Shown: positions 16,606-35,043 of the stretch, piece after piece | How positions within the stretch are numbered: position 1 is the first letter of the stretch | Layout: the number at the start of each line of letters is the position of its first letter | Origin: Terriglobales bacterium | GTDB taxonomy: Bacteria; Acidobacteriota; Terriglobia; Terriglobales; Acidobacteriaceae | Assembly (NCBI GenBank): GCA_025934735.1 | Contig: JAICWP010000001.1 | Span: 248,001-312,000 of the forward strand | Length of the DNA stretch: 64,000 nt | Reading direction: 5' to 3' | Notes under the pieces: generated by a model | What the model saw: the letters and a program-made list of their open reading frames with translations, nothing else | Told to the model about the DNA's origin: nothing | Database searches by the model: none | Position numbers and translations under genes: made by a program

Positions 16606-17439
16606 ATGACAGCCACTTTTTGGCGTAGACTTAGCCCTGCGATGGGGCGTGCCATTGTTCTGTTTTCCTTCCTCTGCATAGGGTTAGCTAGCGCTGCCCA
16701 GGATGTGCAGACCATCATTCAACGCTCCGTTCAGTCCAATGAGAAGGATTGGCAGGCGGACCCCCAGTACGACCACTACGAAACCGACCAGGAAGACGGC
16801 AACCCGCCGCAAACCTATGAAGTACGCATGATCCTAGGCTCGCCGTACAAACGACTGGTATCAGTGAACGGCAGCACGCTATCCGCGGAACAACAAGCCT
16901 CCGAGCAGCACAAGATGCAGCAGGAAATCGCAAAGAGGCAGGCGGAAACGCCGCAACAGCGCTCGGCACGGATCGCCAAGTGGCAGAAGGACCGCAAGCG
17001 CGACCACTTGCTGATGGAGCAACTCACGGCGGCGTTTGATTTCAAGCTGCTGGGACAGCAAAAACTGGGACCTTACCAGGTGTACACGCTGAAAGCCACG
17101 CCTCGCCCGGGCTATAAGCCGCCCAACATGCAATCCCAGGTGCTCACCGGAATGCAGGGCAAGCTGTGGATTGACACCAAGACCTTCCAGTGGGTAAAGG
17201 TGCAGGCCAAGGTAATACAACCGGTTTCCATCGAAGGTTTTCTGGCAACGGTCCAGCCGGGCACTCATTTTGAACTAGAAAAGGCGCCCGTAGGCGACGG
17301 CGTGTGGGAACCGGCGCATTTTTCGATGAAATCGCAGGCTAAGGTTTTGTTCTTTTTTAGCCGCCGCAGCCAGGAAAACGACGTGTACTTCGGATATCGG
17401 AAAGCCAGTGGCCCGTGGTCAATGGCTGGTTCCCAGTAA
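16606..17439 (+). CDS. Secreted protein, possibly LolA-like fold
   Basis: 277 residues from the ATG at 16606. Signal peptide with hydrophobic core AIVLFSFLCIGLASA and probable cleavage after ASA at about residue 30. The mature protein has charged coiled segments (KMQQEIAKRQAETPQQRSARIAKWQKDRKRDH, read in two parts) and a C-terminal beta-rich part (GKLWIDTKTFQWVKVQAKV, FELEKAPVGDGVWEPAHFSM, NDVYFGYRKA) whose order is like outer-membrane-lipoprotein carrier or sigma-E regulator sheets. The fold assignment is a guess. It lies just before the export cluster but has a 142-bp gap with its own regulatory-looking elements. Confidence 0.6.
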   Translation: MTATFWRRLSPAMGRAIVLFSFLCIGLASAAQDVQTIIQRSVQSNEKDWQADPQYDHYETDQEDGNPPQTYEVRMILGSPYKRLVSVNGSTLSAEQQASEQHKMQQEIAKRQAETPQQRSARIAKWQKDRKRDHLLMEQLTAAFDFKLLGQQKLGPYQVYTLKATPRPGYKPPNMQSQVLTGMQGKLWIDTKTFQWVKVQAKVIQPVSIEGFLATVQPGTHFELEKAPVGDGVWEPAHFSMKSQAKVLFFFSRRSQENDVYFGYRKASGPWSMAGSQ

Positions 17440-17482
17440 AGACGAGTGGTCCCTACTGTTCGCGCGCGCACACTGCTGTTCG

Positions 17483-17500
17483 GAAACGGACACCCGTTTC
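17483..17500. promoter_or_regulatory. Candidate regulator-binding dyad upstream of export cluster
   Basis: Perfect inverted repeat GAAACGG (17483-17489), 4-bp spacer, CCGTTTC (17494-17500). Its centre is about 63 bp upstream of the GG of a sigma-54-like element, within the range where NtrC-type activators bind. Since the cluster encodes such an activator, this is a reasonable candidate site. The link is inference. Confidence 0.45.
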
Positions 17501-17552
17501 GGCGTGACGCAGGACTTCCGCCCCTAAATCAATAACTTAGAGCCACACTTGT

Positions 17553-17568
17553 TGGCATACGGCGTGCC
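17553..17568 (+). promoter_or_regulatory. Sigma-54-like -24/-12 element
   Basis: TGGCATACGGCGTGCC: GG at 17554-17555 and GC at 17566-17567 are exactly 12 bp apart, as in the consensus TGGCAC-N5-TTGC. The match is 5/6 at -24 and TGC at -12. The predicted start of transcription (about 17579) is only 3 bp before the adaptor ATG, which would give a nearly leaderless message; that counts against it. The same bases form an inverted repeat TGGCA/TGCCA that could be an operator instead. Confidence 0.35.
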
Positions 17569-17581
17569 ACGCAGGTGAGTA

Positions 17582-18838
17582 ATGGATATCGTCCGACCAG
17601 CAACGGTAGCTCGCCAACGAAAACGGCGCAGGATCGTCTATGCAGCAGTAGGAATTGTTGTGGTGGCCCTGGTGACGATGGGGCTGTCACGGCTGAAGCC
17701 AGCGGCGCCGGGCGTGGACCGCTCGACGGTGTGGATTGACACGGTGAAGCGCGGCCCCATGCTGCGGCAGGTGCGCGGCCTGGGCACGCTGACCCCGGTA
17801 GACATTCAGTGGATCCCGGCGGCCACCGACGGGCGAGTGGAAAAAATTCCGGTTTTGCCGGGAACCGCGGTGCAGCCCAACACCGTATTACTGATATTGA
17901 CGAACCCGCAACTGGTGCAGGAAACCCTGGACGCCACCTTGAAGCTGAAAGCCGCGCAAGCCGATTACAAGAATCTGGAAGCGCAGCTGGAGAGCCAGGT
18001 GTTGACGCAGAAGTCGCTGGTGGCGCAGGCCAGCGCGGAATACAACGAGGCGCGCATGCAGGCCGAGACTGACCAGCAACTGAACAAGCTGGGGGTAATT
18101 TCCGACCTGAACCGCAAAATTGCCGATGGGAAGGCGCAGCAGCTAAAGACGCGCGACCAGATTGAGCAGGAGCGACTGACCAACAGCAGCAAGGTGCTGC
18201 AGGCGCAGTTGCTGGCCAAGCAGGCAGAAATAGATCAAAATCGCGCGCTGGTCCAGTTGAAGCAGACCCAGGTGCAGAACCTGACCGTTCGTGCCGGCAT
18301 CAGGGGAGTGCTGCAGGAGCAGCCCCTGAAGGTGGGGCAGTGGGTCACGCCGGGCACCACGCTGGCCAAAGTGGTGCAGCCCGACCATCTGAAGGCGGAG
18401 CTGAAAATTCCTGAGACCCAGGCCAAGGACATTCAGCTGAACCTGCCGGCATCCGTAGACACGCACAACGGGGTGATCGCCGGTCACGTGATGAGAATTG
18501 ATCCTGCTGTTTACAACGGCACCGTGACCGTGGATGTGATGCTGGACGATAAGCTTCCGCCCGGCGCGCGGCCGGACCTAAGCGTGGACGGCACCATTGA
18601 TCTGGAGCGGCTGGCCAATGTGCTCTACGTGGGCCGGCCCGCTTTCGGCCAGGAAAACAGCACGGTGGGAATGTTCGTACTGCAGCCCGACGGCAAAACC
18701 GCCGTACGTTCGCAAGTGAAACTGGGACGCAGCTCGGTCAACACGGTGGAAATCCTGGGTGGCCTGAGAGAAGGCGAAGAGGTCATCCTTTCCGATATGT
18801 CACGCTGGGACAATTTCGACCGCATCCGCTTGGAATAG
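17582..18838 (+). CDS. HlyD/MacA-type periplasmic adaptor of efflux system
   Basis: 418 residues from the ATG at 17582 behind AGGTGAG. A single N-terminal transmembrane anchor (IVYAAVGIVVVALVTMGL, about residues 18-36), then the barrel-sandwich half (GTLTPVDIQWIPAATDGRVEKI), a long coiled-coil hairpin (about residues 115-235, many Gln/Ala/Lys), the returning lipoyl half (LTVRAGIRGVLQEQPLKVGQWV), and beta-barrel/membrane-proximal parts. Adaptors of this class join an inner-membrane transporter to a TolC channel. It is first in the block and followed 13 bp later by an ATPase gene, so co-transcription is likely. Only one adaptor serves five permeases here. Confidence 0.9.
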   Translation: MDIVRPATVARQRKRRRIVYAAVGIVVVALVTMGLSRLKPAAPGVDRSTVWIDTVKRGPMLRQVRGLGTLTPVDIQWIPAATDGRVEKIPVLPGTAVQPNTVLLILTNPQLVQETLDATLKLKAAQADYKNLEAQLESQVLTQKSLVAQASAEYNEARMQAETDQQLNKLGVISDLNRKIADGKAQQLKTRDQIEQERLTNSSKVLQAQLLAKQAEIDQNRALVQLKQTQVQNLTVRAGIRGVLQEQPLKVGQWVTPGTTLAKVVQPDHLKAELKIPETQAKDIQLNLPASVDTHNGVIAGHVMRIDPAVYNGTVTVDVMLDDKLPPGARPDLSVDGTIDLERLANVLYVGRPAFGQENSTVGMFVLQPDGKTAVRSQVKLGRSSVNTVEILGGLREGEEVILSDMSRWDNFDRIRLE

Positions 18839-18851
18839 CGAGGAAACACGC

Positions 18852-19565
18852 ATGAATGCAACCGCACCTAGCCCTGGACAGCAACTGATCCGCATGGACA
18901 CCATCAACAAAGTCTTCTACACCGACGAGGTGGAGACGCACGCGCTTTCCGGCATCCAGCTGGAAGTGCGAAAAGGCGAGTACGTGGCCATCGCCGGGCC
19001 TTCGGGCTCGGGGAAATCCACGCTGTTGTCCATCATCGGGTTGCTGGATTCGCCCTCGGAGGGCGAGTACTGGCTGAATGGGAGCCAGGTAGCCAACCTC
19101 AACATCAACGAACGCTCGCGTATCCGCAACCGTGAGATCGGGTTCATATTCCAGAACTTCAATCTGATCGGCGACCTCACGGTGTACGAGAACGTGGAGT
19201 TGCCGCTCACCTACCGCGGGATGTCGGGAGTGGAGCGCAAGAAGCGGGTGCTGGAGGCGCTGGAGCGAGTGGGCATGAGTCACCGGCTGAAGCACTATCC
19301 TTCGCAGCTCTCCGGCGGCCAGCAGCAACGTGTGGCCGTGGCGCGCGCCCTGGGAGGAAGCCCCTCCATCATGCTGGCGGACGAGCCCACCGGCAACCTG
19401 GATTCGCGCAACGCGGAAAACATCATGGAGCTGCTGCGCGAACTGCACCGCGAAGGTTCCACCATCTGCATGGTCACGCACGACCCGCGCTTCGCCCGTC
19501 ACGCGGAGCGCACGATCCACCTGTTTGACGGACGGGTGGTGGAGGAAACCGTCGAAGTGAACTAA
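18852..19565 (+). CDS. ABC transporter ATPase, LolD/MacB type (first of two)
   Basis: 237 residues; ATG at 18852 behind AGGAAA. Canonical ABC motifs: Walker [11 protein letters not shown]-loop [18 protein letters not shown], signature [15 protein letters not shown], Walker B plus D-loop [16 protein letters not shown]-loop MVTHDPRFA. The [15 protein letters not shown] and PTGNLDS stretches are typical of the LolD/MacB group that powers FtsX-type permeases by mechanotransmission rather than classical substrate channelling. All catalytic residues are present, so it is expected to be active. Placed between the adaptor and the first ADOP permease. Confidence 0.95.
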
Positions 19566-19656: not shown

Positions 19657-22083
19657 ATGGAGACCTTGATCCAGGACATCCGCTACGGGCTGCGCATGCT
19701 GCGCAAGTCGCCGGGATTTACCGCGGTGGCGGTGATCACGCTGGCGCTGGGCATCGGGGCCAACACCGTGACCTTCAGTTCGATCAATGGCATGCTGCTG
19801 CGTCCGTTCATTTTTCCGCAACTGAATCGTGTAATGGCCATCTGGGAGACCGCTCCCAAGCAGAACATCAAACGGGCGAGCGCGGCAGCGGGCAATCTCC
19901 AGGATTGGCAGCAACAGAGCCGCAGCTTCCAATATCTGGCGGCCAGCCACACTTGGAACGCCAACATGACCGGCGCTGGAACGCCGGAGAGGGTGGAAGG
20001 CTACCAGGTTACGGCGGATTTCTTCCGCCTGCTGGGAGTGCCTGCCGAGTACGGCCGCGCCATCACCACGGACGACTTCACCAGCAGTCGTGTTCCCGTG
20101 GTGGTCCTCAGCCATAGTTTCTGGGAGCAGCGCCTGGGAGGAGACCGCGCGCTGGTAGGGAAGACCTTGGAGTTCGATGGCCAAGCGCGCACGGTGGTGG
20201 GCATTATGTTGCGCGATTTCGATTTCCCCCCGGGAGCGCAGGCGTGGGCGCCGCTGCTTCTGAGCGGAGCGGAAGCTGCGGACCGCGACAACCATTATTT
20301 GAAGGTGATCGGGCGGCTGAAAGCGGGGGTCTCGCCCAGGCAGGCAGAAGGCGACTTGGGGGCGATCGCGGCGCGAGCAGGGCTTGAGTTTCCACAAAGC
20401 AACGCCGGGCATGGCGTGCGCGTGCTTTCGCTGGTGGAAGATATGGCTGAAGGTTCACGCCAGTTTTTATCAGTACTTTTAGGAGCCGCGATTTTTGTGT
20501 TGCTGCTGGCCTGCGCCAACGTTGCCAATCTTCAACTGGCGCGGGCGACGGGGCGAGCCAAGGAAGTGGCGTTGCGCACCGCGCTGGGAGCCAGCCGCGG
20601 CCGCATTATTCAGCAATTGCTGGCTGAGAGCCTGCTACTGGCGGCACTCGGCGCCGGCGCCGGGCTGCTGATATCCAGTTGGTGGCTGCCGCTGCTGATG
20701 CGCACCGTGCCGCCGTTCATTATCGAGCACGTACCGGGCCTGAAACACATTCAACTGGACTATCGCGCCTTGGAGTTCACCCTGGTGCTGGGCGGGCTGG
20801 CGGGACTGCTGACGGGGCTAGCGCCAGCATTGCAGGTATCGCGGCCGGACCTGAACGAAGCGCTGAAGGAAGGAGTGCGAGGCGGCATCGCGGCGCCGGG
20901 GCGGCATCGCCTGCGCTCGCTGTTGGTGATTTCGGAAATGGCGCTGGCCATCGTTTTGCTGGTGGGCGCCGGGCTGATGGTGACGGGATTTCGGGCCATC
21001 ATGGAACGAGACCAGGGATTCGACCGCGATGCGATATTGACGTTCCACATCGCGCTGCCGGCAGCGAAGTATGGCACGACAGCGCGGGTGAGAGATTTTT
21101 ACCGCCAGTTGACCGAGCGCTTGCAAGGCTTGCCGGGGGTGAAATCGGCGGCGGTGGCCAACAGCCTGCCGGCGGATTGGTACTGGGACAGCATGCGGGT
21201 CACAATCGAGGGGCAGGGACCTCTTCTTCCGGGCGAGATGCGGCTGGCGATCTCCGAGCTGGTCGGTCCCGATTTCTTTCGCACCTTGCGGATTCCGCTG
21301 CGGCAGGGCCGGCTATTCACTTCAGGGGACGGAGCAGAAGCCGCGCCCGTGGCCATCATCAGCGATAGTCTGGCGCGGCATTACTGGCCGGCTAAAAGCC
21401 CCATAGGAAAACGCATGCGCCTGGGCGATGACACCAAAGCGCCGTGGCGAACGGTGGTGGGCGTAGCCGGAGACATCGTACGGGCTCCGCTGGATTTGCA
21501 GCCCGATCCCACGGTATATGTTCCCTTCGCGCAACAGCCGCAAGGGGCGATGGCAATAGCCATCCGCACCAGCGGAGATCCGATGGCGGTGGGAGCAGCC
21601 GCCCAGACCCAAGTGCAGGCGCTGGACCGCAACCAGCCAATCTATGACATGCGCACCCTGGAGCAGAAAGTCTCGGACAACATGAGCGGAGTGGAGTCTT
21701 CAGCGAGGTTGATGACCATGTTTGGCATCATCGGCCTCGTGCTGGCGGCGGCGGGCGTTTATGCAGTCATGGCGTATCTGGTGGTGCAGCGCACGCACGA
21801 AATCGGAGTACGCATGGCGCTGGGAGCGACTCCAGGGCATGTTCTGCGGCTGATGGTTCGGCGAGCCGTGGTTCTGGCGGTCGTAGGGCTGGCCATTGGC
21901 CTGCCCGCAGCCCTGGCGCTGGCCCGCGTGTTGTCGAGCGTTCTATTTGGGGTTGTGAGTATGGATCTGGCTGTCTTCACGGGCTGCACTTTTGTTTTGG
22001 CGCTGGTGGCGGGCGTGGCGGGTTATTTGCCAGCACGGCGCGCGAGCAAGGTGGATCCCATAGTGGCCCTGAGGTACGAGTAA
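19657..22083 (+). CDS. ADOP-type ABC permease 1 (MacB/FtsX-like, duplicated)
   Basis: 808 residues from the ATG at 19657 behind CAGGAG. Begins with the ADOP N-terminal signature ([20 protein letters not shown]) and contains two MacB-like units, each a periplasmic core domain plus FtsX helices: first copy [19 protein letters not shown], second copy [19 protein letters not shown]. Ends [17 protein letters not shown]. Predicted eight transmembrane helices, about twice a single MacB permease part. No ATPase is fused; the upstream LolD-type gene (91 bp away) is the natural partner. Probably moves a lipid, peptide or small molecule from the periplasmic side towards TolC; substrate unknown. Confidence 0.93.
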
Positions 22084-22120: not shown

Positions 22121-22139
22121 CCACGTGTTTGAGGGACTT

Positions 22140-24623
22140 ATGGAAACGTTGCTGCAGGACATTCGTTACGGTTTACGCATGCTGCTGAAGGCGCCCGGCT
22201 TTACGGTGGTAGCTGTGGTCACGCTGGCGCTGGGCATCGGCGCGAGCACCGCGATCTTCAGCGTAGTGTATGGCGTGCTGCTGCGGCCACTTGCGTACGA
22301 CCACCCCGACCAGATCGTAGAACTGCATGAGGTTAATCCACAGGGCGGCGAAATGCACTTCGCCGATCCTAATTTTGAAGATATCCGGTCGCAGGCCCGG
22401 TCTCTGCAGGATTTAGCGGAATACGGCGCCTGGACCGAGTCGGTATCGGGCGGCACGGAGCCGACGCGCACGATAATCGCCCCGGTTTCGCGCGACTTCT
22501 TTCCCGTGCTGCGCGTGCAGCCATTTCTAGGGCGCAGTTTTTCGGCGCAGGACCAGCGCTTTGGAGCCGCTCCCGTCGCTTTGGTCGGTTATGGATACTG
22601 GAAGCAGTTTCTCGGCGGCGCGGCCGACCTCTCCTCGAAGAAGCTCGCTATTGACAATCGCTCGTTTTCGATTGTGGGCGTGCTGCCGCCGCAATTCAGC
22701 TTTCCTCCCCAGGCTGAAATCTGGGTGCCACGGGAGCTCTATGAGCGCCTTCCCAGCCGCACTGCCCACAACTGGCAGTTGATAGGCCGCTTGCGCGACG
22801 GCGCCTCCGTACCCGAAGCGCACGCCGAACTGCAGACCCTTGCCACGCGGTTGAAGCGGCAGTACGGCCAGGACACGATGATGACTGGCGTCGCTATCGC
22901 GCCGCTGCGCAAAGCGATGACCAGTCCGGTGCGTCCGGCGCTGTGGATCCTGCTGGGGGCAGTGGGATTTCTTCTGCTGATAGCGTGCGCTAACGTGGCC
23001 AACCTGCTGCTGGTGCAATCGGCGGCGCGGCAAAGGGAGCTCGCGATCCGCGTGGCTGTTGGCGCGAACCGCAGCCGCATCGTCCGGCAGTTGCTGGCCG
23101 AGGCGCTTTTGCTGTCACTCGGCGGCTGTGCCGCCGGTGTGGTGGCCGCCGTCTGGGGGCTGCAGGCGCTGCTGGCATTATCACCCGGCGTTCTGCCACG
23201 CATGGCGGAACTTACGATCAGCGCTCCGGTGCTTGCGTTTTCTGTGGGACTGGCTGTGTTGGTCGCCGTAGCGCTAGGGGCCTTCAGCGGTTTGCGGTGC
23301 AGCACGGGGAGTGTGCAGCACGCCCTCATGGCAGGCGGGCGTTCCCAAACCGGCGCGCTGATTTCGCAGCGCCTGAGCCGCGCTATCGTAGCCGGGCAGT
23401 TAGCCATCACGCTGGCGCTGCTGGCCGGAGCCGCGCTACTGGGCCGAAGCCTGCTGCGGGTCCTGTCGGTGAATACCGGTTTTCAAACCGAACACATAAT
23501 CACCATGAATCTGGCGCTTCCAACGGTCGTGGACTGGGCAGCGCCGGGCCCACTCGCCAACCAGGATGCGGCGAAACAGAGGCGGGCACAGTTCCTGGAT
23601 GAATTGCTGGCCCAGGTTCGCAACATTCCCGGGGTTCAGGAGGTGGGCGGCACCAATGTTCTTCCGGTCACCAACTCAGCTGCGGACGGCACGTACGCGT
23701 TAATAAGTCCAGGGGAGGCGGCCCCCAGGGACATGCAGGGTCTGCAGCAGATGTTTCACGACCGCAGCCGCACCGGGGATGCTGATTACAGCGCGGTGAC
23801 GGCCGGCTACTTTCGAGTCCTCGGGATTCCCTTGCTGCGCGGACGGCTGTTTAGCGCGAGCGACACCATGGATTCCCCGCACGTGGCCCTGATCAGCGAA
23901 TCGCTGACGCGTGAGAAGTGGCCAAACCAGGATCCACTGGGCCACCAGATCGAATTCGGCAACATGGATGGCGACCTGCGCCTGCTTACCGTGGTGGGAG
24001 TGGTCGGCGACGTGCGCGAAAACAACCTGGAAAGCCCAGCCGGGCCGACGATCTATGTGGATTGCCGGCAACGGCCGGAAGCAACTTCTGATTTCACAAT
24101 TGTCGCGCGCACGAATGCGGATCCCGCTGCCGTGACCCAGGCAGCGCGGCGGATCGTGCGCGACCTCGACCCCAACGTTCCACCCAGATTCGCCACTCTG
24201 GCAGAGGTGGTTTCGGGTTCGCTGCAGTCGCGCCGCTTTAATTTGATCCTGGTAGGGGCGTTTGCGGCGAGCGCGCTGTTGCTGGCCTTGGCCGGGATGT
24301 ATGGGGTGATGGCCTATTCGGTTAGCCGCCGCACCAATGAAATCGGAGTGCGCATGGCGCTGGGCGCCAGCCGGATGAGCGTGCTCCGCCTGGTGCTGGG
24401 GCAGGGGCTGCTGACCGCGGGCGCGGGAGTCGGCCTGGGGCTGGTTGTTTCCCTAGCGTTAACCCGCACGATGGGCTCGCTGCTCTTCGGATTAAGTGCT
24501 GACGATCCTTTGACATTTGCCGGAGTAGCACTGCTGCTGGTCACCGTGGCGCTGCTGGCAAGCTACATTCCCGCCCGACGGGCAAGCAGGGTGGATCCCA
24601 TGGAGGCGCTACGGTACGAGTGA
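22140..24623 (+). CDS. ADOP-type ABC permease 2
   Basis: 827 residues from the ATG at 22140 behind TTGAGGG; the in-frame ATG at 22125 lies ahead of that site. Same duplicated MacB architecture: ADOP signature [20 protein letters not shown], first FtsX unit RQRELAIRVAVGANRSRIV, second [19 protein letters not shown], end PARRASRVDPMEALRYE. Bases 22161-22242 are identical to 24727-24808 at the start of permease 3, and the hairpin ahead is shared too, pointing to tandem duplication or gene conversion. The periplasmic core domains have diverged clearly, so substrate or partner roles may differ. Confidence 0.93.
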   Translation: METLLQDIRYGLRMLLKAPGFTVVAVVTLALGIGASTAIFSVVYGVLLRPLAYDHPDQIVELHEVNPQGGEMHFADPNFEDIRSQARSLQDLAEYGAWTESVSGGTEPTRTIIAPVSRDFFPVLRVQPFLGRSFSAQDQRFGAAPVALVGYGYWKQFLGGAADLSSKKLAIDNRSFSIVGVLPPQFSFPPQAEIWVPRELYERLPSRTAHNWQLIGRLRDGASVPEAHAELQTLATRLKRQYGQDTMMTGVAIAPLRKAMTSPVRPALWILLGAVGFLLLIACANVANLLLVQSAARQRELAIRVAVGANRSRIVRQLLAEALLLSLGGCAAGVVAAVWGLQALLALSPGVLPRMAELTISAPVLAFSVGLAVLVAVALGAFSGLRCSTGSVQHALMAGGRSQTGALISQRLSRAIVAGQLAITLALLAGAALLGRSLLRVLSVNTGFQTEHIITMNLALPTVVDWAAPGPLANQDAAKQRRAQFLDELLAQVRNIPGVQEVGGTNVLPVTNSAADGTYALISPGEAAPRDMQGLQQMFHDRSRTGDADYSAVTAGYFRVLGIPLLRGRLFSASDTMDSPHVALISESLTREKWPNQDPLGHQIEFGNMDGDLRLLTVVGVVGDVRENNLESPAGPTIYVDCRQRPEATSDFTIVARTNADPAAVTQAARRIVRDLDPNVPPRFATLAEVVSGSLQSRRFNLILVGAFAASALLLALAGMYGVMAYSVSRRTNEIGVRMALGASRMSVLRLVLGQGLLTAGAGVGLGLVVSLALTRTMGSLLFGLSADDPLTFAGVALLLVTVALLASYIPARRASRVDPMEALRYE

Positions 24624-24627
24624 GCCC

Positions 24628-24686
24628 GCCCACCCTTTGCACAAACCGCAAAGGATGGGGCACCCGCACAGGCGAGGCGCCTGTGC
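24628..24686. repeat. Two-hairpin repeat between permeases 2 and 3
   Basis: First hairpin: CCCACCCTTTGC (24629-24640) pairs imperfectly with GCAAAGGATGGGG (24648-24660). Second: GCACAGGCG (24666-24674) with CGCCTGTGC (24678-24686). The first unit recurs, degenerate but ungapped, right after the stop of permease 3 (27160-27197); the second recurs before permease 2. Both forms resemble dispersed palindromes I recall from acidobacterial genomes. Confidence 0.8.
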
Positions 24687-24705
24687 CCACATGATTGAGG
24701 AACTT

Positions 24706-27159
24706 ATGGAGACTTTGCTGCAGGATATTCGTTACGGTTTACGCATGCTGCTGAAGGCGCCCGGCTTTACGGTGGTAGCTGTGGTCACGCTGGCGCTGGG
24801 CATCGGCGGCAACACCGCCATGTTCAGCGTGGTTGATGCCGTGCTGCTCAAGCCTTTGGCATTTCCTCACTCCGAGCGCTTGATCTCGGTCAATGAAACG
24901 GATTCGCGGCGTCCAGGCAAACCGGACACATTTTCTTATGCCGATTTCTTCGATTACCGGGCGCAGAACCGCACGTTCGAAAGCATGGCCACATATCGCG
25001 ACGCCTCTTTCAACCTGACGGGCGTTGGCCAACCACAGCATCTGGAAGGGGAAGTAGTCTCCTCCGACTTCTTTTCCGTTTTGGGAATAAAGCCGGCTCT
25101 GGGGCGAGGGTTCCGTCGTGAAGAAGAGCAGGCGGGCCGGTGGGTGGTGGTGCTGAGCCATCAGCTTTGGCAATCGCAATTTGGCTCCGATCCCGCCATT
25201 ATCGGCCGCACCATCACGCTGGATAACCGCGCCTACTCCGTGATCGGCGTAGCTCCGGCGGGCTTGGAGTTTCCCGTTCAGTATCCCGCTCCGCAGCTGT
25301 GGGGCAGCCTGGCGCGGGACGCCGATCCCAACGGCGGCACGCCCGCTACGGCGCCCACCAACCGGGGTGCTCATTTCGTGAGCGTGATTGGGCGACTGAA
25401 TCCGGGCGTGACTCTAGCCAGCGCCCAGGCCGACACCAATGTCATCGCCCAGCGTCTGGCGCGCCAATATCCGGACAGCAACTCGCGCCGCAGCGTCAGC
25501 ATGCTTATCCCAGAATTGCAGAGGCTGGTGGGAGATGTGCGTCCGGCTTTGCTTGTGCTGCTCGCGGCAGTGGGATTCGTGCTGCTGATCGCGTGCGCCA
25601 ATGTCGCCAATCTGCTCTTGGCGCATGCCAGCAAGCGGCATCGCGAGATTACGGTGCGCGCCGCCTTAGGCGCTCCCCGGCGGCGACTGGTGAGGCAGTT
25701 GTTGACGGAAAGCCTGCTGCTGGGGTTGGTGGGTGGCGGGCTGGGCTTAGGACTGGCCAGCTGGATTCTTGTCGCGATTGTTCACTTTGAAGCCGGGAAC
25801 ATTCCGCGCCTGGAGCAGGTGGGGCTGAACCTGCCGGTGCTGGGATTTACGGCTGCGGTGTCGTTTGCCGCGAGCATGCTGTTCGGGATGGCTCCCGCCT
25901 GGCATACTGCGCGCACCGACCTGGCAGAAACCTTAAAAGAGGGCGGCCGCGGCGCGTCGGGCAGCGCCGGCTCCAACCGGCTGCGCGCAGGCCTGGTGAT
26001 TGCTGAAACAGCAATCGGCGTGGTGCTGCTGGTGGGCGCGGGCCTGCTGCTGCGCAGCTTCGTTCAGTTGATTCGGGTGGACCCTCACTTCAACCCTCAT
26101 CATGTGCTGGCCCTCAGTTTCAACCTGCCAAGCTCACGCTACAACGATGCAAAAACCATCAACTTCTATGACCAGTTGCTGCCCCGGTTGCGGGCGCTGC
26201 CTGGGGCGGAGGAGGTCGGTGCGGCCTGGCCGCTGCCTTTCAGCGGAGATGACGCAATTATCTCCTTCGAGATTCAAGGACGTCCTTCGCCTCCCGGCCA
26301 GCATCCGTTGGCCGATCTGGCGGTCGTCAGTCCCGGCTACTTCCATACCATGGGAATTAGCTTGCTCAAGGGCCGTGACTTCAGCGCGCATGACGAGGCC
26401 ACCTCACCGCCTGTGGTTATCATCAGCCAGAGCTTTGCCCGCCAGTATTTTCCCAATCAGGATCCAGTAGGCCAACATATGCAGCCGGGAGTTTCCAAGA
26501 GTGATAAGGAACCTCCCATGCGCGAAATCGTAGGCGTGGTGGCCGATATCAAGCACGGCAGCTTAAGCGATGACTTCACGCCCCGCTACTATCTGCCCTA
26601 TTCGCAGGGAATGTTTGGCCCCCCGTTGAGCATTGTGGTCCGCTCCGCCGGAAATCCCGTGGCACAGTTGGACGCCGTGAGCAATGCAATTCACGGCATG
26701 GACAAGGAACTGGCCGTGTATGGCGTGCACACTATGGACGAGATGATGTCCACTTCGGCCAACCAGCCGCGCTTCGATACTTTCCTGCTCTCGCTGTTTG
26801 CCGCTATCGCGCTGCTGCTCACCGCGGTCGGGCTCTATGGCGTGATGGCTTACTCGGTGGTGCAGAAGACACATGAAATCGGCATTCGCATGGCGCTGGG
26901 GGCCGATCCGGCTGACCTGCTGCGCATGGTGCTGCGACGGACAATTGTGTTGGTGGTCGCCGGGCTGGGCCTTGGCATTGTGATCGGGATTGGAGTGACG
27001 CGCTTCCTGGCGGGCATGTTGTTTGCGGTGCATCCGCTGGACTGGCCGACTTACGCGGGTGTCTCCGTGGTTCTACTCGGAGTCGGACTGCTGGCCGGCT
27101 ATGTGCCGGCGCGGAGGGCCAGTAGGGTCGATCCAATGGTGGCATTGAGGTACGAGTGA
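24706..27159 (+). CDS. ADOP-type ABC permease 3
   Basis: 817 residues from the ATG at 24706 behind TTGAGGAA; the longer frame from 24637 reads through the repeat and is unlikely. ADOP signature [20 protein letters not shown]; FtsX units RHREITVRAALGAPRRRLV and [19 protein letters not shown]; end PARRASRVDPMVALRYE. The first 35 codons are nearly identical to permease 2, the rest is not. Followed by a degenerate copy of the intergenic hairpin and then a second ATPase gene 66 bp on, so this permease ends the first ATPase-permease set. Confidence 0.93.
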   Translation: METLLQDIRYGLRMLLKAPGFTVVAVVTLALGIGGNTAMFSVVDAVLLKPLAFPHSERLISVNETDSRRPGKPDTFSYADFFDYRAQNRTFESMATYRDASFNLTGVGQPQHLEGEVVSSDFFSVLGIKPALGRGFRREEEQAGRWVVVLSHQLWQSQFGSDPAIIGRTITLDNRAYSVIGVAPAGLEFPVQYPAPQLWGSLARDADPNGGTPATAPTNRGAHFVSVIGRLNPGVTLASAQADTNVIAQRLARQYPDSNSRRSVSMLIPELQRLVGDVRPALLVLLAAVGFVLLIACANVANLLLAHASKRHREITVRAALGAPRRRLVRQLLTESLLLGLVGGGLGLGLASWILVAIVHFEAGNIPRLEQVGLNLPVLGFTAAVSFAASMLFGMAPAWHTARTDLAETLKEGGRGASGSAGSNRLRAGLVIAETAIGVVLLVGAGLLLRSFVQLIRVDPHFNPHHVLALSFNLPSSRYNDAKTINFYDQLLPRLRALPGAEEVGAAWPLPFSGDDAIISFEIQGRPSPPGQHPLADLAVVSPGYFHTMGISLLKGRDFSAHDEATSPPVVIISQSFARQYFPNQDPVGQHMQPGVSKSDKEPPMREIVGVVADIKHGSLSDDFTPRYYLPYSQGMFGPPLSIVVRSAGNPVAQLDAVSNAIHGMDKELAVYGVHTMDEMMSTSANQPRFDTFLLSLFAAIALLLTAVGLYGVMAYSVVQKTHEIGIRMALGADPADLLRMVLRRTIVLVVAGLGLGIVIGIGVTRFLAGMLFAVHPLDWPTYAGVSVVLLGVGLLAGYVPARRASRVDPMVALRYE

Positions 27160-27225: not shown

Positions 27226-27948
27226 ATGATTCAGTTGCGAAACGTGGAACGAACCTACAAAACCGGGCCGGGAGTGACGTATGTGCTGCGGCGCGTCAAC
27301 GTGGACATCCAGGCGGGAGAGTTTGTCACCATCATGGGCCCCTCGGGAGCGGGGAAGACCACGCTGCTCAGCATTGTTGGCATGCTGGACGATTCGTGGG
27401 CGGGCGAGTACTACTTCCTTGACCATCCAGTGCACAAAATGGACCGGAAAAAGCGGGCCGAGTTGAACCGGCAATATATCGGCTTCGTTTTCCAGAGCTA
27501 TCACCTGCTGGACAACCTGACGGTGTATGAAAATCTGGACGTGCCGCTCTCCTACCGCAACATCTCGCGGCACCAGCGCGCTTCCATGGTGGCTGAAGCG
27601 CTGGACCGGTTCCAGATCGTGGGCAAAAAAGATCTGTATCCCAGCCAGCTTTCCGGCGGACAGCAGCAGTTGGTGGGGGTGGCAAGGGCGGTGGTGGGAA
27701 ATCCCAAACTGATTCTGGCCGATGAGCCCACTGGCAACCTGCACTCCAGCCAAGCCAAAGAAATCATGGAGCTGTTCAAGAAGCTGAACGACCAGGGCAC
27801 CACCATCATTCAGGTGACACATTCCGAGGTGAACGCCTCTTACGGCAACCGCACCATTCAGCTGTTCGATGGATGGGTGGTGAATGATCCCAAGGCACCG
27901 AAGGGGGAAGGCCAGTCGGAGCCGGCGGCATCCGGAGGAACGAGATAG
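27226..27948 (+). CDS. ABC transporter ATPase, LolD/MacB type (second, with altered signature and D-loop)
   Basis: 240 residues from the ATG at 27226 behind TAGGAG. Walker A GPSGAGKTT, Q-loop FVFQSYHLLDNLTVYENL, Walker B LILADEPTG and H-loop VTHSE are intact. Two positions deviate: the signature reads LSGGQQQLVGVARA where [10 protein letters not shown] is usual, and the D-loop reads GNLHS instead of GNLDS. These could weaken ATP-driven closure in a homodimer; pairing with the canonical ATPase of the same cluster is a possibility. Followed by two more permeases (gap 21 bp), which suggests a second functional set. Confidence 0.93.
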   Translation: MIQLRNVERTYKTGPGVTYVLRRVNVDIQAGEFVTIMGPSGAGKTTLLSIVGMLDDSWAGEYYFLDHPVHKMDRKKRAELNRQYIGFVFQSYHLLDNLTVYENLDVPLSYRNISRHQRASMVAEALDRFQIVGKKDLYPSQLSGGQQQLVGVARAVVGNPKLILADEPTGNLHSSQAKEIMELFKKLNDQGTTIIQVTHSEVNASYGNRTIQLFDGWVVNDPKAPKGEGQSEPAASGGTR

Positions 27949-27969: not shown

Positions 27970-30435
27970 ATGGAGACTCTGCTGCAGGATGTTCGCTACG
28001 GGCTGCGCATGCTGCGCAAGAGCCCGGGCTTCACGCTGCTGGCCGTGATCACGCTGGCGCTGGGAATTGGCGCGAACACGGCGATCTTCAGCGTGGTTTA
28101 CGAGGTGATGTTCCGGCCGTTGCCTTACGCGCAGCCGGACCGCCTGGTAAAGGTCACCCTGCAGTGGAAGCATGGCGGCATAGCCGACAGCGTCACCCCG
28201 GTGCTGGCCAGTGCGGTGCTGGAAAATAACCGTGTATTCCAGTCGTCCGCGATGGAGTTTCCCGCGACGGGCTGCAATCTGGCGGGAGGCGGCGCCCCGG
28301 AGTACGTGCCGGCGAAGCGAGTGTCGGCCGGTTTTTTCGGCACCTTGGGCGTGACGCCGGCACTGGGACGCGAATTTCTGGAGTCAGAAGCGGCGGGCGG
28401 GCACAGCGCCGTGCTGAGTTACGGACTCTGGCAAAGCCGCTTTGGCGCCGAACCAGACATTCTGGGACAGCAGATTGCCTGCAATGGAGAGACGTATACC
28501 GTCGTGGGCGTGCTGCCGCGAAGCTTTCGTTACGAGCGCCGCGCCGACGTATGGCTGCCTGATCGCCTGACCAATCACCTGCAGGACAGCGGCCTGAATT
28601 ATGACCTGATCGCACGCTTGCGGCCGGGGGTGAGCCTGGCCCAAGCACAGGAGGACGGCCGGCGGATGTGGGCGCAATTGTCGCGCGAGCATGGGAGCGC
28701 CTGGTACGTCCGCAACACCGAAGGGTTCAACTTCATACCCTACCAGCGCTGGCTGGCGCGCGATGTGCGCCCATCGCTGCTGTTTCTGCTAGGGGCCGTT
28801 GCCCTGGTGCTGCTGATTGCCGTGGCCAATGTTGCCGGGCTGATGCTGGCGCGCACGACCGCGCGAGCCCGTGAGATTGCGGTGCGGGCCGCGCTGGGGG
28901 CCACCCGCGCTCGGATCGTTGGCCAACTGATCACAGAAGCCGTCCTGCTCAGCCTGCTCGGAGGCGCGGCGGGCGTGTTGCTGGCGTGGTACCTGAATGG
29001 CGGGCTGAAGGCGATTTTTCCAGCGGAAGTGGCGCTCCACATGCCGGTGCAATTGGACTTGACAGGACTGGCGCTGAATGGCCCGGTTCTGATTTATACG
29101 GTCGTGATTTCCTGTGTGGTGGGGATTCTGGCCGGCACGGTTCCGGCGCTGCACTGCCTGAGAGGGCAGCCCAATGCCGCTTTGAAGCAGGGCGAACGCA
29201 GCGTGGGCAGCAGCCGCGCCCAGCGGCGGGGACGCAACCTGCTACTGGTGGGCGAGGTCGCCCTCTCCCTCATGCTGCTGGTGGGCTGCTCGCTGCTGCT
29301 GCGCAGTTTCCTGCTCATGCGCGGTGTGGACCTCGGCTTCGATCCGCACAACTTGCAGGTCGCGCAGCTCTCGCTGGCCTCACGGAAATTTGACAACACC
29401 GCCGCGGTCACACAGTTTCAGCAGAAATTGCTGGAGAAAGTGCGCGGAATACCCGGGGTGGTAGATGCGGCGAGCGTCTCCTCGGCGCCGCTGGAGTTCG
29501 GCCTCAACCTGCCCATGCCCGAGCTACCCGGCAAGGACTGTAGTGACAATCCACTGGAATACCGCGCGGTGAGCCCGTCGTACTTTTCGACCATGCGGGT
29601 GCCGCTGCTGCGCGGGCGTAGTTTCACCCATGGCGATGGTGCCGGAGCGGGTCCGGTAATGATCATCAACCGGGCCATGGCCCGGTTGTGCTGGCCGGGA
29701 AAGGATGCGCTGGGGGCGCAGGTATGGATCGGCAAGGGCATGGAAAAAGAAGGCCTGACCGATCAGCCGCGCCAGGTGGTGGGCATTGTCGGGGACATGA
29801 AGGAGTACTCGCTGGGCCAGGCGCCGCCGCCCATGGCGTTCGTGCCGCAGGCGCAGGTGCCGGATGCGATTGACGGCTTGCTGTACCAGAGCTTCGGGCT
29901 GCTCTCCGCGATGGTAATTCGCACCAGCGGCCCCGTGGATTTTTCTTTGCCGCTGGCGCGCGCGGTTCGTGAAGTTGACCCACAGCAGCCGCTGGCGAGC
30001 GTGGCGCCCATGTCGCAACTGGTGAGCGACTCGGTGGCATTCGCGCGCGTGCTGGCCATTCTGATGAGCGCATTTGCCGGGCTGGCGCTGCTGCTGAGCG
30101 CCGTGGGGCTTTATGCCCTGCTCAGCTATCACGTGAGCCAGCGCACGCAGGAGATTGGCATCCGCATGGCACTGGGCGCTCCCAGAGAGCGGGTACTGGC
30201 CATGGTGATGCGGGAGGGCATTGTGCTGGTCGCAGTTGGAACGGCGGTGGGACTTGCGGCGGCGCTGGGGCTGACGCGCCTGGCGGCCAGCCTGCTGTTT
30301 GGGATTACAGCAACCGACGCGGCTTCATTTGTGGTGTCGGTGCTGTGCTTGTTGGGAGTCGCTCTGCTGGCCAGCTATCTGCCGGCACGGAGAGCGACCA
30401 AGGTGGACCCCCTAGTAGCGCTGCGATACGAGTGA
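27970..30435 (+). CDS. ADOP-type ABC permease 4
   Basis: 821 residues from the ATG at 27970 behind GAGG. ADOP signature [20 protein letters not shown]; FtsX units [19 protein letters not shown] and [19 protein letters not shown]; end [17 protein letters not shown]. First of the two permeases after the altered ATPase. Its first periplasmic domain ([20 protein letters not shown]) is shorter of charged residues than in permeases 2 and 3, and carries the Cys pairs seen in none of them. Twelve bases separate it from permease 5, so the two are translated from one message. Confidence 0.93.
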
Positions 30436-30447
30436 ATTGAGGCAAGT

Positions 30448-32880
30448 ATGGACTCTTTTCTACATGATCTTCGCTACGGGCTACGCATGCTGCGCAAGAG
30501 CCCGGGATTCACCACGGTGGCGCTGCTGGTGCTGACCATCGGCATTGGGGCGAATGTGGCCATCTTCAGCGTGGTTAACACGGTGCTGCTGCGGCCGCTG
30601 CCGTACCACGACCCTGGACGGCTGGTGATGATCTGGGAGAGCCTGCCCGGCATCGGCTACCCGCAGGTGGGTACCTCCAGCGCCGAATACCTCGACTACC
30701 GCGATCGCAACCGGGTGTTCAGCGGTATTGCCGGATACAAGAATGACACGGCGAACCTGACCGGCTCCGGCCAGCCGGAACGCATTCCCATCACGCGAGC
30801 CAGCTTCAACCTGTTTTCCATTCTGGGAGTTGAGCCCGCGATGGGCCGCACCTACACGGCCGAGGAAGACAGGCCGGGAGGACCCAAGGTTGCTGTCCTT
30901 AGCTACGGGCTGTGGAAGCGGCGCTATGGCGCCGATACCAACATTCTGGGCCGGGCCATCAGCCTCGACGGGCAGCCCTATACGGTGATTGGCGTGATGC
31001 CGGCATCGTTCCAGTTTCCATTTTCCACGCTGCCTTACTCGGACCAGGCGGAACTATGGGTTCCGGTGGCGTTTACGCCGGATGAAATCGCGGACCGCGT
31101 GCGGGAATTCGGCACCTTCACCGTGGCGCGACTGAAGCCGGGAGTCTCGCAGCCGCAGGCGCAGGAGGACGTGACGCGGGTCGCTGCCGAATTCCAGCAG
31201 CAGAACCCTAAAGTTTACAACGGCAGTGTTTATGTGAAACCGACCGCCAGCCCTCTGGCGGCCGACATTGTGGGCAAAGTGCGGCCCATGCTGCTGGTGC
31301 TGCTGGGAGCGGTAGGTTTTGTGCTGCTGATCGCCTGCGCGAACCTGGCTAACCTGCTGCTGGCACGGAGCACGGCGCGGAGGCGGGAGATGGCGGTGCG
31401 GGCGGCGCTGGGCGCGTCCCAGGCGCGTCTGGTGCGGCAATTTCTGACGGAGAGCGTTCTGCTGGCCCTAGGTGGCGGCGTACTCGGACTGGGAGCCGCG
31501 TTCTGGCTGGTTCGCCTGCTGGCGGCATTCGGTCCAGAACAGGTGCCGCGGCTGCAGGATGTTTCACTCGATCCGGTGGTTCTGGCCTTCGCGGCAGCGC
31601 TCGCCCTGGTCACGGGAATCCTGTTCGGAATGGTCCCAGCGTGGCGTACTTCGCGAAGCCAATTGCAATCGGCGCTGAAGGAAGGAGCTCGGGCGGGCAC
31701 CAGCCGGGAAGGGCTGCGCCTGCGCAACGGGCTGGTCGTCGTGGAGACGGCGTGCTCGCTGGTTCTGCTGGCGGGGGCGGGCTTGCTGATTAACAGCTTT
31801 ATACGGGTTTTGAGAGTGCCACCGGGATTCAACCCCCGCGGGGTGCTGATTGCCCGTACCCAGTTCGATGAGACCCGCTACCCCAAAGCGTCGTCATGCG
31901 CTGCTGCGGAACGGGAAATCCTCGCCCGCTTGCGGCAGTTGCCGGGAGTGCAGTCAGTGGCTTTCGTGACCAATCTCCCGCTGGCGGACCCCAGGGGAAT
32001 AGGCTTCCGCATCGAAGGACACCCGCCCAATGAGTTCCACAACGCTGACAACACATTAGTGAGCGAAAACTACTTCCCAGTGATGGGAATCTCGCTGCTG
32101 CGGGGACGCGGGTTCCGGGAGCAAGACACGGAATCAACCCCGCTGGTAGCGGTCATAAACGAGACTCTCGCCCGCACGTATTTTCGGGACGAAGATCCCA
32201 TTGGGAAACGGTTGCTTTGGGGTGACCGGACGCCATTCACCATCGTGGGGGTGACCGGCGATGTCAAATTTTCCGCGCTAGATGCCGAGGTCGCGCCCAT
32301 GATCTACATGTCGAATTTCCAGGTGGCGAGCGGAGTTAGCCGGCACGCGGTATTCGTGGTGCGAACGGCAGGAGATCCGGCCAGCCTGGCGAGCGCCGCG
32401 CGGCGCTCCATCTGGGCTGTGGACAAGGACCTGCCGGTGTTTGGCGTAACCACGATGAATGATGTGCTGGCGGGCTCGGTGGCGCAACGCCGCTTCAGCA
32501 TGAGCCTGCTGGGAGCCTTCGCCATATTGGCGCTGCTGATGGCGGCGATTGGACTTTATGGCGTGCTCTCTTACTCGGTCAGCCAGCGCATGCACGAGAT
32601 GGGATTGCGCGTCGCGCTGGGAGCGAACGCGCGCGATCTGCTTCGTTTGGTGGTTGGACAGGGAATTCGCGTGGCGCTGATCGGTGTGGCCGCGGGTCTG
32701 CTCGCCAGCTTCGCGGGCACGCGGCTGTTGGCGGGAATGCTCTTCGGAGTGAGCCCTCTCGATCCGCTCACCTTCCTCGTGGTGGCGGGAGTGCTGGTTT
32801 TGGCAGCGCTGCTGGCCAGTTTCGTGCCGGCGCGGCGGGCGACCAAAGTGGACCCTATGGTGGCGCTGCGCTATGAGTGA
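30448..32880 (+). CDS. ADOP-type ABC permease 5
   Basis: 810 residues from the ATG at 30448 behind GAGG. N-terminus [20 protein letters not shown] is the most divergent of the five; FtsX units [19 protein letters not shown] and RMHEMGLRVALGANARDLL; end [17 protein letters not shown]. The topology is again two MacB-like halves with large periplasmic domains. Last permease before the TolC gene (150-bp gap). Whether all five act with the same adaptor and channel, or some are spares under divergence, cannot be told from sequence. Confidence 0.93.
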   Translation: MDSFLHDLRYGLRMLRKSPGFTTVALLVLTIGIGANVAIFSVVNTVLLRPLPYHDPGRLVMIWESLPGIGYPQVGTSSAEYLDYRDRNRVFSGIAGYKNDTANLTGSGQPERIPITRASFNLFSILGVEPAMGRTYTAEEDRPGGPKVAVLSYGLWKRRYGADTNILGRAISLDGQPYTVIGVMPASFQFPFSTLPYSDQAELWVPVAFTPDEIADRVREFGTFTVARLKPGVSQPQAQEDVTRVAAEFQQQNPKVYNGSVYVKPTASPLAADIVGKVRPMLLVLLGAVGFVLLIACANLANLLLARSTARRREMAVRAALGASQARLVRQFLTESVLLALGGGVLGLGAAFWLVRLLAAFGPEQVPRLQDVSLDPVVLAFAAALALVTGILFGMVPAWRTSRSQLQSALKEGARAGTSREGLRLRNGLVVVETACSLVLLAGAGLLINSFIRVLRVPPGFNPRGVLIARTQFDETRYPKASSCAAAEREILARLRQLPGVQSVAFVTNLPLADPRGIGFRIEGHPPNEFHNADNTLVSENYFPVMGISLLRGRGFREQDTESTPLVAVINETLARTYFRDEDPIGKRLLWGDRTPFTIVGVTGDVKFSALDAEVAPMIYMSNFQVASGVSRHAVFVVRTAGDPASLASAARRSIWAVDKDLPVFGVTTMNDVLAGSVAQRRFSMSLLGAFAILALLMAAIGLYGVLSYSVSQRMHEMGLRVALGANARDLLRLVVGQGIRVALIGVAAGLLASFAGTRLLAGMLFGVSPLDPLTFLVVAGVLVLAALLASFVPARRATKVDPMVALRYE

Positions 32881-33030
32881 ACGGCGGGTTGTCGCTGCGC
32901 CCAGGATTTCGGCAGCGGATTCAAGCACGTCACCCAGACAACCGACTGAAGTTTTTCGTGGTTTGCGAGGGCAACATGCACCCCGTGAAGCTGGCGAGAG
33001 CCGGCGCCCATTTTCAAAGGTGTGGTGAAT

Positions 33031-35043
33031 ATGACAAAAACCAATGGTGTTTTCGGTGCGATTTGCGGGCTGCTGCTGATGATTGCCGCGGCCGGTACCC
33101 CGATTTCGGCTCAGGTGTTCCGCTTTCCCAACGCCGGATCGCAATTTCCCAACCTGATCAATCCCTATACCCCGGTGCAGGTGCCGCAGCCCAAGCTGAC
33201 GAACACGCCGCGTCTGGACACGCTGATGAGGAACGGCAAGCTGATGCTGTCGCTAAGCGATGCGGTGGCGATGGCGCTGGAGAATAATCTGGACATCGCT
33301 ATCGCGCGCTATAACCTTTCTATCGCGGATACCGACATTCTGCGGGCGCAGGCGGGATCGGAGATCCGCGGCGTGGCCACCGGTCTGGTGGAAGGCACGC
33401 CGGGCGGGGGAGTAGGCGGGTTCGGCACCGGAGCGCAGGGCTCGGGGGCGGGCGGGACCAGCGGCGGGGCGGGGGGGGCCGGCGGCGGCGCTTCCGGCCT
33501 GGTGGAGTCCACGCTGGGGACGGGCTCGCAATTGGAGCCTTACGATCCGCAACTGATCGCGAAGATGAACATCAACCACGCGGCCCAGCCCGTCAACAAC
33601 GCGGTCACCACCGGCCAAATCAGCGCCTTCCAGCAGAACATCGCCAATGCAAACTTTAACTACCAGCAGGCGTTTCCCACTGGCACGCTGCTGCAGGTGG
33701 AATTCAACAACTTCCGGGCTACCGACAATGGCCAGTTTGATCTGCTGGTGCCGCAGGTATTTTCCCAGTTCCGGGCTGAGGTAAAGCAGCACTTGCTTTC
33801 TGGCTTCGGGCTGGGACCGAACCTGCGCTTCGTCCGCATCGCGAAAAACAACCGCGAGATTTCGGATGTAGCGTTTCGCAACCAGGTGATTGCCACGGTG
33901 TCACAGATACAGAACATCTACTGGGACCTGGTCAGCTCCTATGAAGACGAGAAGGTGAAGGAGCGTTCGCTGAACCTGGCGGAGAAGACGCTTTCCGATA
34001 ACCAGGAGCAAGTGCGGATTGGGGCGCTGCCGGCGATCGAGGTGACGCAGGCGCAGAACGAGGTGGCCAGCCGCAAGCAGGACCTGATCATCGCGCAGAC
34101 CGGATTGCAGCTGCAGCAGTTGCTGATGAAAAACGCGATTACACGCAACCTGGGCGATCCGTTCATTGCGGCCGCGCCGGTGGTGCCCACCGACACCATG
34201 TATGTGCCGGAGAAGGAGCCGGTTCGGCCGGTACAGGACCTGCTGGACGACGCCTATGCCCACCGTCCCGAGCTGGCGCAGGCGCGCATTGACCTGACCA
34301 ACCGCGAAATCAGCCGCAAGAGCGCCAAGAACGCCCTCCTGCCCACGGTGGATCTGGTGGGGTGGTACGGGGCTTCGGCCTTAGCGGGCCAGCAGAACCC
34401 GGCGTTCACCTGTCCAGCGGGAGTGGTACCGTCCAATTCTCTGGAGTGCCTGCCAGCCGGGACGGTGGCCCGGACGGGTTTCAACAATGCTTTTGCCAAG
34501 CTGTTCCGCAACGACTTTCCCGATTACGCAGTGGGATTCCAGATCAATATTCCCTTCCGCAACCGGGCCGCCAAAGCGGACCAGATCCGCTCCGAACTGG
34601 AATACCGCCAAGCGCAGATGCGGCTACAGCAACTGCAGAACGAAATCGGGATCGAGGTGCGCAACGCGCAATTTGCCCTGCAGCAGAACCGGGCGCGGGT
34701 GGAAGCGGCCACCACCGCGCGCGACCTGGCGCAGCACACCTTCGAGATCGAGCAGAAGAAGTACGCGCTGGGCGCTTCCACCAGCTACCAGGTGCTGCAG
34801 ACGCAGCGCGACCTGGCGCAATCGGAGTCGGCGCGGGTGGGAGCCATGGCGGCCTATGAGAAGTCGCGCGTGGAATTGGACCGCGTGACCGGGCTGACGC
34901 TGACGCACAACGGAATCGAGATTGCCGATGCGGAGAACGGGCATGTGCAGAAGGCGCCGGAGATTCCTGGCGTGATGCCGCGTACCGACTTAACCGACCA
35001 GAAGCCGACTCCTGCGCCCGACATCCCCGGGCCTTCCTTGTGA
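33031..35043 (+). CDS. TolC-type outer-membrane efflux channel with Gly-rich insertion
   Basis: 670 residues from the ATG at 33031, preceded by AAAGGTG; GTG codons at 33022 and 33025 are alternatives. Signal peptide (GAICGLLLMIAAAGTPISAQ), then two outer-membrane-efflux-protein repeats: LSDAVAMALENNLDIAIARYN and later DDAYAHRPELAQARIDLTNRE, with long coiled-coil helices ending in QQKKYALGAS-type stretches. About 190 residues longer than E. coli TolC, partly from a low-complexity Gly/Ser insertion at bases 33400-33510 (such as GGGVGGFGTGAQGSGAGG). Its C-terminal tail is Pro-rich. Last structural gene of the export block; its stop overlaps the GTG start of the response regulator. Confidence 0.92.
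   Translation: MTKTNGVFGAICGLLLMIAAAGTPISAQVFRFPNAGSQFPNLINPYTPVQVPQPKLTNTPRLDTLMRNGKLMLSLSDAVAMALENNLDIAIARYNLSIADTDILRAQAGSEIRGVATGLVEGTPGGGVGGFGTGAQGSGAGGTSGGAGGAGGGASGLVESTLGTGSQLEPYDPQLIAKMNINHAAQPVNNAVTTGQISAFQQNIANANFNYQQAFPTGTLLQVEFNNFRATDNGQFDLLVPQVFSQFRAEVKQHLLSGFGLGPNLRFVRIAKNNREISDVAFRNQVIATVSQIQNIYWDLVSSYEDEKVKERSLNLAEKTLSDNQEQVRIGALPAIEVTQAQNEVASRKQDLIIAQTGLQLQQLLMKNAITRNLGDPFIAAAPVVPTDTMYVPEKEPVRPVQDLLDDAYAHRPELAQARIDLTNREISRKSAKNALLPTVDLVGWYGASALAGQQNPAFTCPAGVVPSNSLECLPAGTVARTGFNNAFAKLFRNDFPDYAVGFQINIPFRNRAAKADQIRSELEYRQAQMRLQQLQNEIGIEVRNAQFALQQNRARVEAATTARDLAQHTFEIEQKKYALGASTSYQVLQTQRDLAQSESARVGAMAAYEKSRVELDRVTGLTLTHNGIEIADAENGHVQKAPEIPGVMPRTDLTDQKPTPAPDIPGPSL

Follow-up and report, generated by a model that had tools for sequence, protein, structure and literature searches.

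A conserved sigma-54-type promoter and enhancer layout, with a predicted near-leaderless message, in front of an ADOP-type exporter operon of Acidobacteriaceae

A run of eleven exporter and regulator genes in a Terriglobales bacterium (Acidobacteriaceae) is probably a sigma-54 operon that encodes an ADOP-type exporter and regulates itself; its message would start almost at the first codon of its leading gene, hlyD. The genes lie in a 64,000-nucleotide stretch of contig JAICWP010000001.1 (assembly GCA_025934735.1), which is called the window below. The parts of this reading differ in strength. Control by sigma-54 together with a TGTYC-N6-GGACA enhancer is very likely, and we lean, with some reserve, toward the view that the near-leaderless message is the one in use. 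The evidence is a sequence layout, a start codon, a gene order, and an activator contact loop (GAFTDA) that recur in relatives.

The eleven genes share one strand over about 20 kb; no gap between neighbours exceeds 141 nt, and the last genes overlap at two junctions (Table 1). This gene order, together with the overlaps, suggests a single operon that ends in its own regulators. A preliminary description of this DNA placed a sigma-54 activator at the end of the island; the activator is near the end, but a sensor kinase gene follows it as the last gene. Five genes exceed the cut-off of the ADOP permease model TIGR03434 (622.3 bits). The genome as a whole holds 54 matches to this model, 30 of them over the cut-off, compared with none over the cut-off in 14 control genomes. 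Five permeases, an adaptor, an ATPase, and TolC-like partners are features shared with ADOP permease systems and MacB/darobactin-type exporters. However, the operon differs from the latter in its DarC (69.7 of 450 bits) and DarD (255.2 of 375 bits) scores, and because both are under cut-off, we assign no substrate to the exporter. The nearest hlyD relatives outside the genome (L002 to L006) are 71-73% identical; four are labelled Terriglobia and one Acidobacteria.

Table 1. Genes and putative control elements of the exporter operon (window coordinates).
Feature	Position	Strand	Basis
Second enhancer copy, degenerate, TGTTCGCGCGCGCACA	17457..17472	+	2 mismatches to TGTCC-N6-GGACA; 20 nt from better copy
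Main enhancer copy TGTTCGGAAACGGACA	17477..17492	+	TGTCC-N6-GGACA conserved in relatives
Dyad of the preliminary description	17483..17500	+	overlaps enhancer; register not conserved
IHF-like site AATCAATAACTTA	17527..17539	+	exact match to consensus, between enhancer and promoter
-24/-12 promoter TGGCATACGGCGTGCC	17553..17568	+	GG-N10-GC kept in relatives
Predicted +1 and leader GTA (3 nt), directly followed by ATG	17579..17581	+	placed by -12 to +1 distance
hlyD-like periplasmic adaptor gene	17582..18838	+	HlyD_3, HlyD_D23; TIGR01730 over cut-off
ABC ATPase	18852..19565	+	ABC_tran
ADOP permease 1	19657..22083	+	TIGR03434 over cut-off
ADOP permease 2	22125..24623	+	TIGR03434 over cut-off
ADOP permease 3	24637..27159	+	TIGR03434 over cut-off
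Second ABC ATPase	27226..27948	+	ABC_tran
ADOP permease 4	27970..30435	+	TIGR03434 over cut-off
ADOP permease 5	30448..32880	+	TIGR03434 over cut-off at G000:C20:278460-280877
TolC-like outer membrane efflux protein	33022..35043	+	OEP
Activator: receiver, sigma-54 AAA+, Fis-type HTH domains, loop GAFTDA	35040..36461	+	PF00072, PF00158, PF02954 over cut-off
Sensor histidine kinase	36451..37845	+	HATPase_c over cut-off, PAS_4 just over, HisKA under cut-off

For the comparison, we assembled 51 hlyD upstream loci, of which 44 came from genomes of the same family, six from named records, and one from the window. Of the 60 hlyD matches in the family, the 10 not yet used then served as hold-out loci, which brings the total to 61 regions. 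Loci L002 to L006 recurred as L085 to L089 and were counted once, and L007 was counted with the same family, to which we presume it belongs. Counts over 48 loci omit L095, L109, and L120, from which the promoter is absent.

The two elements named in the preliminary description, the promoter TGGCATACGGCGTGCC with its GG-N10-GC spacing and the dyad GAAACGG-ACAC-CCGTTTC, are present as written, and the dyad centre lies about 63 bp before the GG. Neither is impressive alone, since perfect dyads of this size (7-bp arms, 4-nt gap) occur 10 times in the window, whose promoter scores 9.8 with a weight matrix, below the 99% shuffle value of 11.3. When the same scoring was applied to the window and 70 of 80 loci (three were dropped for short upstream DNA and seven were unaligned from residue 1), 19 of 71 upstream regions exceeded the 99% shuffle level on the forward strand and 2 of 71 on the reverse. 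A scan for TGGCAY-N6-TTGCW with two mismatches allowed returned 43 matches, compared with 71 expected. The promoter and dyad of the window are thus unremarkable singly, and it is comparison with relatives that lifts the arrangement above chance.

That comparison strongly favors the promoter. Within 60 nt of the start, GG-N10-GC occurs in 48 of the 51 loci, whereas 200 shuffles gave a mean of 8.8 and a maximum of 15. The hold-out set behaves similarly: 9 of its 10 loci carry the element, each with a site 13-15 nt before the start. The -24/-12 spacing, which the preliminary description had proposed to look for before homologous operons, is therefore found in 57 of 61 hlyD upstream regions. Its position is also narrowly set: in 46 of 48 loci the C of the -12 element precedes the start codon by 13-17 nt (19 and 22 nt in the remaining two), as it does in 55 of the 57 promoter-bearing regions of the pooled set. 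Where several GG-N10-GC sites lie near a start, the best-matching one was used, chosen by eye for the hold-out loci. The genome carries one match to rpoN (PF00309, 54.9 bits).

In line with the proposed circuit, three of the four hlyD loci that lack the promoter belong to genomes in which no activator matched at an E value of 1e-120 (G041, G109, and G056). The fourth belongs to G034, a genome with two hlyD copies, and the copy that lies upstream of the activator does have the promoter. Counting against the circuit, the promoter is kept in three other genomes that lack an activator match, G112 (87% complete), G098 (85%), and G007 (100%), and in G007 the enhancer is degenerate. Two hlyD relatives from outside the phylum (L070 and L072, labelled Opitutaceae, Verrucomicrobia) also have GG-N10-GC near the start, with predicted leaders of 7 and 15 nt, and a TCCCA/TGGGA palindrome can be seen by eye upstream of L070.

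The upstream palindrome is conserved in a different register from that of the reported dyad. At least 6 of the 7 arm positions of GAAACGG/CCGTTTC are matched in 2 of 48 loci, the window included, and we therefore rejected this register as the enhancer. In the 4.94-Mb genome, GAAACGG-N4-CCGTTTC has a single exact occurrence and another with one mismatch, and a reversed control pattern finds as many places. Given also the 10 perfect dyads in the window, such a dyad is not rare, and chance is the best account of its exact register. The overlapping pattern TGTCC-N6-GGACA is matched at 4 or more of 6 positions in all 48 loci, from whose sequences this register was itself chosen. With one mismatch or less, it occurs in 43 of 51 loci (mean of 0.37 and maximum of 3 in shuffles) and in 7 of the 10 hold-out loci. 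Furthermore, paired copies 19-21 nt apart, each with two mismatches or less, are present in 26 of 51 loci compared with a mean of 0.005 in 200 shuffles, and the window has such a pair (TGTTCGGAAACGGACA and the weaker TGTTCGCGCGCGCACA).

Distances from enhancer to promoter cluster at 76, 86-88, 97-100, and 107-113, about one helical turn apart. A helical-phase test on 10 outlying loci gave p values of about 0.0007 at a period of 11 and 0.05 at 10.5, which is suggestive only because related loci are not independent. We also considered an intrinsic terminator at the dyad and rejected it, since none was found in 17300-17700 and no T-run follows the dyad. Elsewhere in the window, a second enhancer-like palindrome, TGTCCGAGAACGAACA, lies at 37990-38005, about 145 nt past the kinase gene; no TGG-N10-GC accompanies it at the spacings searched. 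In another genome (G037, contig C65, 22974-23187; L209), there is a pair of overlapping enhancer-plus-promoter units in divergent orientation, of which one points toward hlyD and the other away.

Enhancer-dependent promoters of the NtrC type have IHF between enhancer and promoter, and the corresponding interval here contains AATCAATAACTTA, an exact match to the IHF consensus WATCAANNNNTTR. A match with one mismatch or less is found in 17 of 48 loci, compared with a mean of 2.3 and a maximum of 10 of 48 in shuffles. The genome has four genes of the HU/IHF family (PF00216, a model that cannot separate IHF from HU).

The predicted transcript start is unusually close to hlyD. Setting +1 at 12 nt after the C of the -12 element places it at 17579, in agreement with the earlier estimate of about 3 nt before the ATG at 17582. 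Because the C lies 13-17 nt from the start codon in nearly all relatives, the same rule predicts leaders of about 2-6 nt, so the message would not be strictly leaderless. The preliminary description regarded the loss of the ribosome-binding site as a difficulty for the promoter. The predicted transcript does exclude AGGTGA, which sits just upstream of 17579, but the layout is conserved, and the short leader is best seen as a property of the operon that gives no argument for a false promoter.

Although a misplaced start codon would remove the leader problem altogether, the true protein then beginning further down behind an ordinary leader, we rejected this as highly improbable. Codons 2, 3, and 5 of hlyD (D, I, and R) specify the same amino acids in all 48 loci despite synonymous codon variation, and the annotated start is thus very likely right; codon 1 is ATG in 45 loci and GTG in 3. 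Even more remote is the idea that a random dyad met a random GG-N10-GC. Within the window alone neither would be unusual, but chance does not account for promoter and enhancer at fixed positions across 51 loci and 10 hold-out loci, and it was rejected on that ground.

A greater, though still unlikely, alternative accepts sigma-54 and the enhancer and supposes that the working message has a leader: a second promoter further upstream would supply AGGTGA, and the -24/-12 RNA would be minor or poorly translated. In its favor, AGGTGA is well placed ahead of the hlyD ATG in the window, and AGGT recurs just before the predicted +1 in the near relatives L002, L003, L005, and L006. Shine-Dalgarno matches of at least 5 nt are also found in 7 of 48 loci (mean of 2.8 and maximum of 8 in shuffles), including the window and three near relatives. 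Against it, no sigma-70-like site was found in 17300-17700 by a strict-consensus search, and matches of at least 4 nt in the -18 to -5 interval number 12 of 48, compared with 12.1 in shuffles, and are absent from the other 36. Since these matches are at shuffle level, the family as a whole looks leader-independent, and the clade of the window may keep an alternative. In 33 of 48 loci, including 11 of 11 with 16-nt spacing, the third base before the start codon is a G, which is anchored more to the start codon than to the -12 element; it fits either a GNN leader or a translation context. The 10 hold-out loci were left out of the -3 base and Shine-Dalgarno counts.

It is less probable again that a paralogous activator is the main regulator, such as the one encoded on contig C40 with the same enhancer before its own gene, and that the operon's activator acts elsewhere or jointly. 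The shared enhancer and promoter do precede this paralogue and two ADOP permease genes, but the operon's activator is constantly linked to hlyD. Of 120 genomes in the family, 59 contain an hlyD match (two copies in G034), 59 an activator match, and 53 both. The two lie on one contig in 44 genomes, and in every one of these the activator gene follows hlyD on the same strand, at a distance of 4.9-29.8 kb with one exception at 60 kb. Because of this constant placement, autoregulation by the operon's own activator fits the data. The enhancer-plus-promoter arrangement with autoregulation in the preliminary description is thus supported by the conserved promoter, the upstream enhancer, and the activator near the operon end, with a different palindrome register in place of the dyad.

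The sigma-54 contact loop of this activator is GAFTDA in 25 of 25 orthologue rows, or 22 of 22 genomes once duplicates are removed (of the 59 with a match). Exact GAFTGA was not found in the loop of the window's activator or of the orthologues read in these 22 genomes. The annotated GTG start adds about 20 N-terminal residues that are unaligned in most relatives, and for this reason the true start of the activator may be later.

The enhancer also appears in front of other genes. A pattern of enhancer and promoter at limited spacing gave 71 matches in 39 of the 120 family genomes, whereas its reversal gave 3; because TGTCC is required, the 71 do not include the window itself, whose site reads TGTTC. 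With a looser pattern, the genome of the window has five places, including the window, compared with three at an off-by-one spacing and one further match in the reversed control. Counts like these do not by themselves prove a regulon in this genome. The argument, weak by count, comes from the gene contexts, which include two ADOP permease genes and one paralogous activator gene; a place on contig C16 has no recognizable target. The paralogous receiver-domain activator gene (L161, contig C40, near 23341) is preceded by two enhancer copies and a -24/-12 element, an arrangement that suggests a self-regulated paralogue or cross-talk.

Of 30 loci considered in relatives, 29 gave a result, and their targets comprise 11 hlyD genes, 6 ADOP permease-like genes, 1 activator-like gene, and 11 that are unclear or chance-like. 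Outside hlyD, the C of the -12 element lies 82, 28, and 32 nt from the start in the genome of the window and about 24-72 nt from the start for the six ADOP-like targets in relatives, with starts judged by eye. Other operons with the shared enhancer thus appear mostly to have ordinary leaders. A short leader may nevertheless occur outside hlyD, since the longest reading frames would place three of the six ADOP-like targets at 7, -4, and -4 nt, and the activator-like gene (L197) may start at either 13 or 28 nt.

From the conserved layout, we infer a positively autoregulated circuit. The kinase would phosphorylate the activator, which would bind the paired TGTYC-N6-GGACA enhancer, while an IHF-like protein would bend the DNA at 17527-17539. 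The activator would then open sigma-54 polymerase at 17553-17568, and a single sigma-54-dependent transcript would start at about 17579, so that the message would begin GUA-AUG and the adaptor would be translated from this near-leaderless RNA without a Shine-Dalgarno leader.

Several of these features have parallels in the literature. With NtrC-type sigma-54 promoters such as norV, regulated by NorR (PMC2941729), the operon shares the -24/-12 element, paired upstream palindromes, an IHF-like site between palindromes and promoter, and an NtrC-type activator; it differs in a predicted start 2-6 nt before the codon, a native GAFTDA loop, and another palindrome. The GAFTDA sequence is also known from DVU2106, the example given where GAFTDA is listed among variants expected to retain activity (PMC4641369), from VfmH, with which RpoN was not pulled down (PMC10714721), and from the NorR mutant G266D, which is freed from control by its regulatory domain yet remains able to open promoter complexes (PMC2941729). 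The NorR result favors sigma-54 activation through this loop, and the VfmH result counts against it. In contrast to these, the loop here is native in all 22 genomes and belongs to a receiver-domain activator.

Leaderless genes have been predicted in Acidobacteria, at 13.3% on average in 3 of 3 genomes, in a study that considered sigma-70-type boxes only (PMC3160421). The hlyD operon resembles such genes in its short or missing leader and differs in having a -24/-12 promoter and a predicted leader of 2-6 nt instead of zero. Leaderless messages and sigma-54 promoters are treated in the same organisms in PMC3616915, PMC3847290, PMC5243855, and PMC12403871. A conserved near-leaderless sigma-54 operon is not described in the available text of these four papers, whose tables could hold single cases, and in the C. 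jejuni study (PMC3847290) leaderless messages follow sigma-70 boxes. Likewise, we found no account of ADOP permease control in the open-licence literature, and the present enhancer, promoter, and activator offer a testable system for such control across the family.

We suggest tentatively that sigma-54 polymerase makes a message with a leader of about three bases (GNN-AUG) on demand and that the family has kept this device for one export operon, whereas most other operons that share the enhancer have leaders of ordinary length. Should the short leader be confirmed, near-leaderless messages would have a conserved source in sigma-54 promoters as well as in sigma-70 promoters, and the activator, with its native GAFTDA loop, would provide a natural equivalent to the NorR bypass mutant. 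If true, this arrangement would couple enhancer-controlled transcription to leader-independent translation, and synthesis of the pump adaptor could perhaps continue while normal initiation is hampered, for instance by the compounds that are exported.
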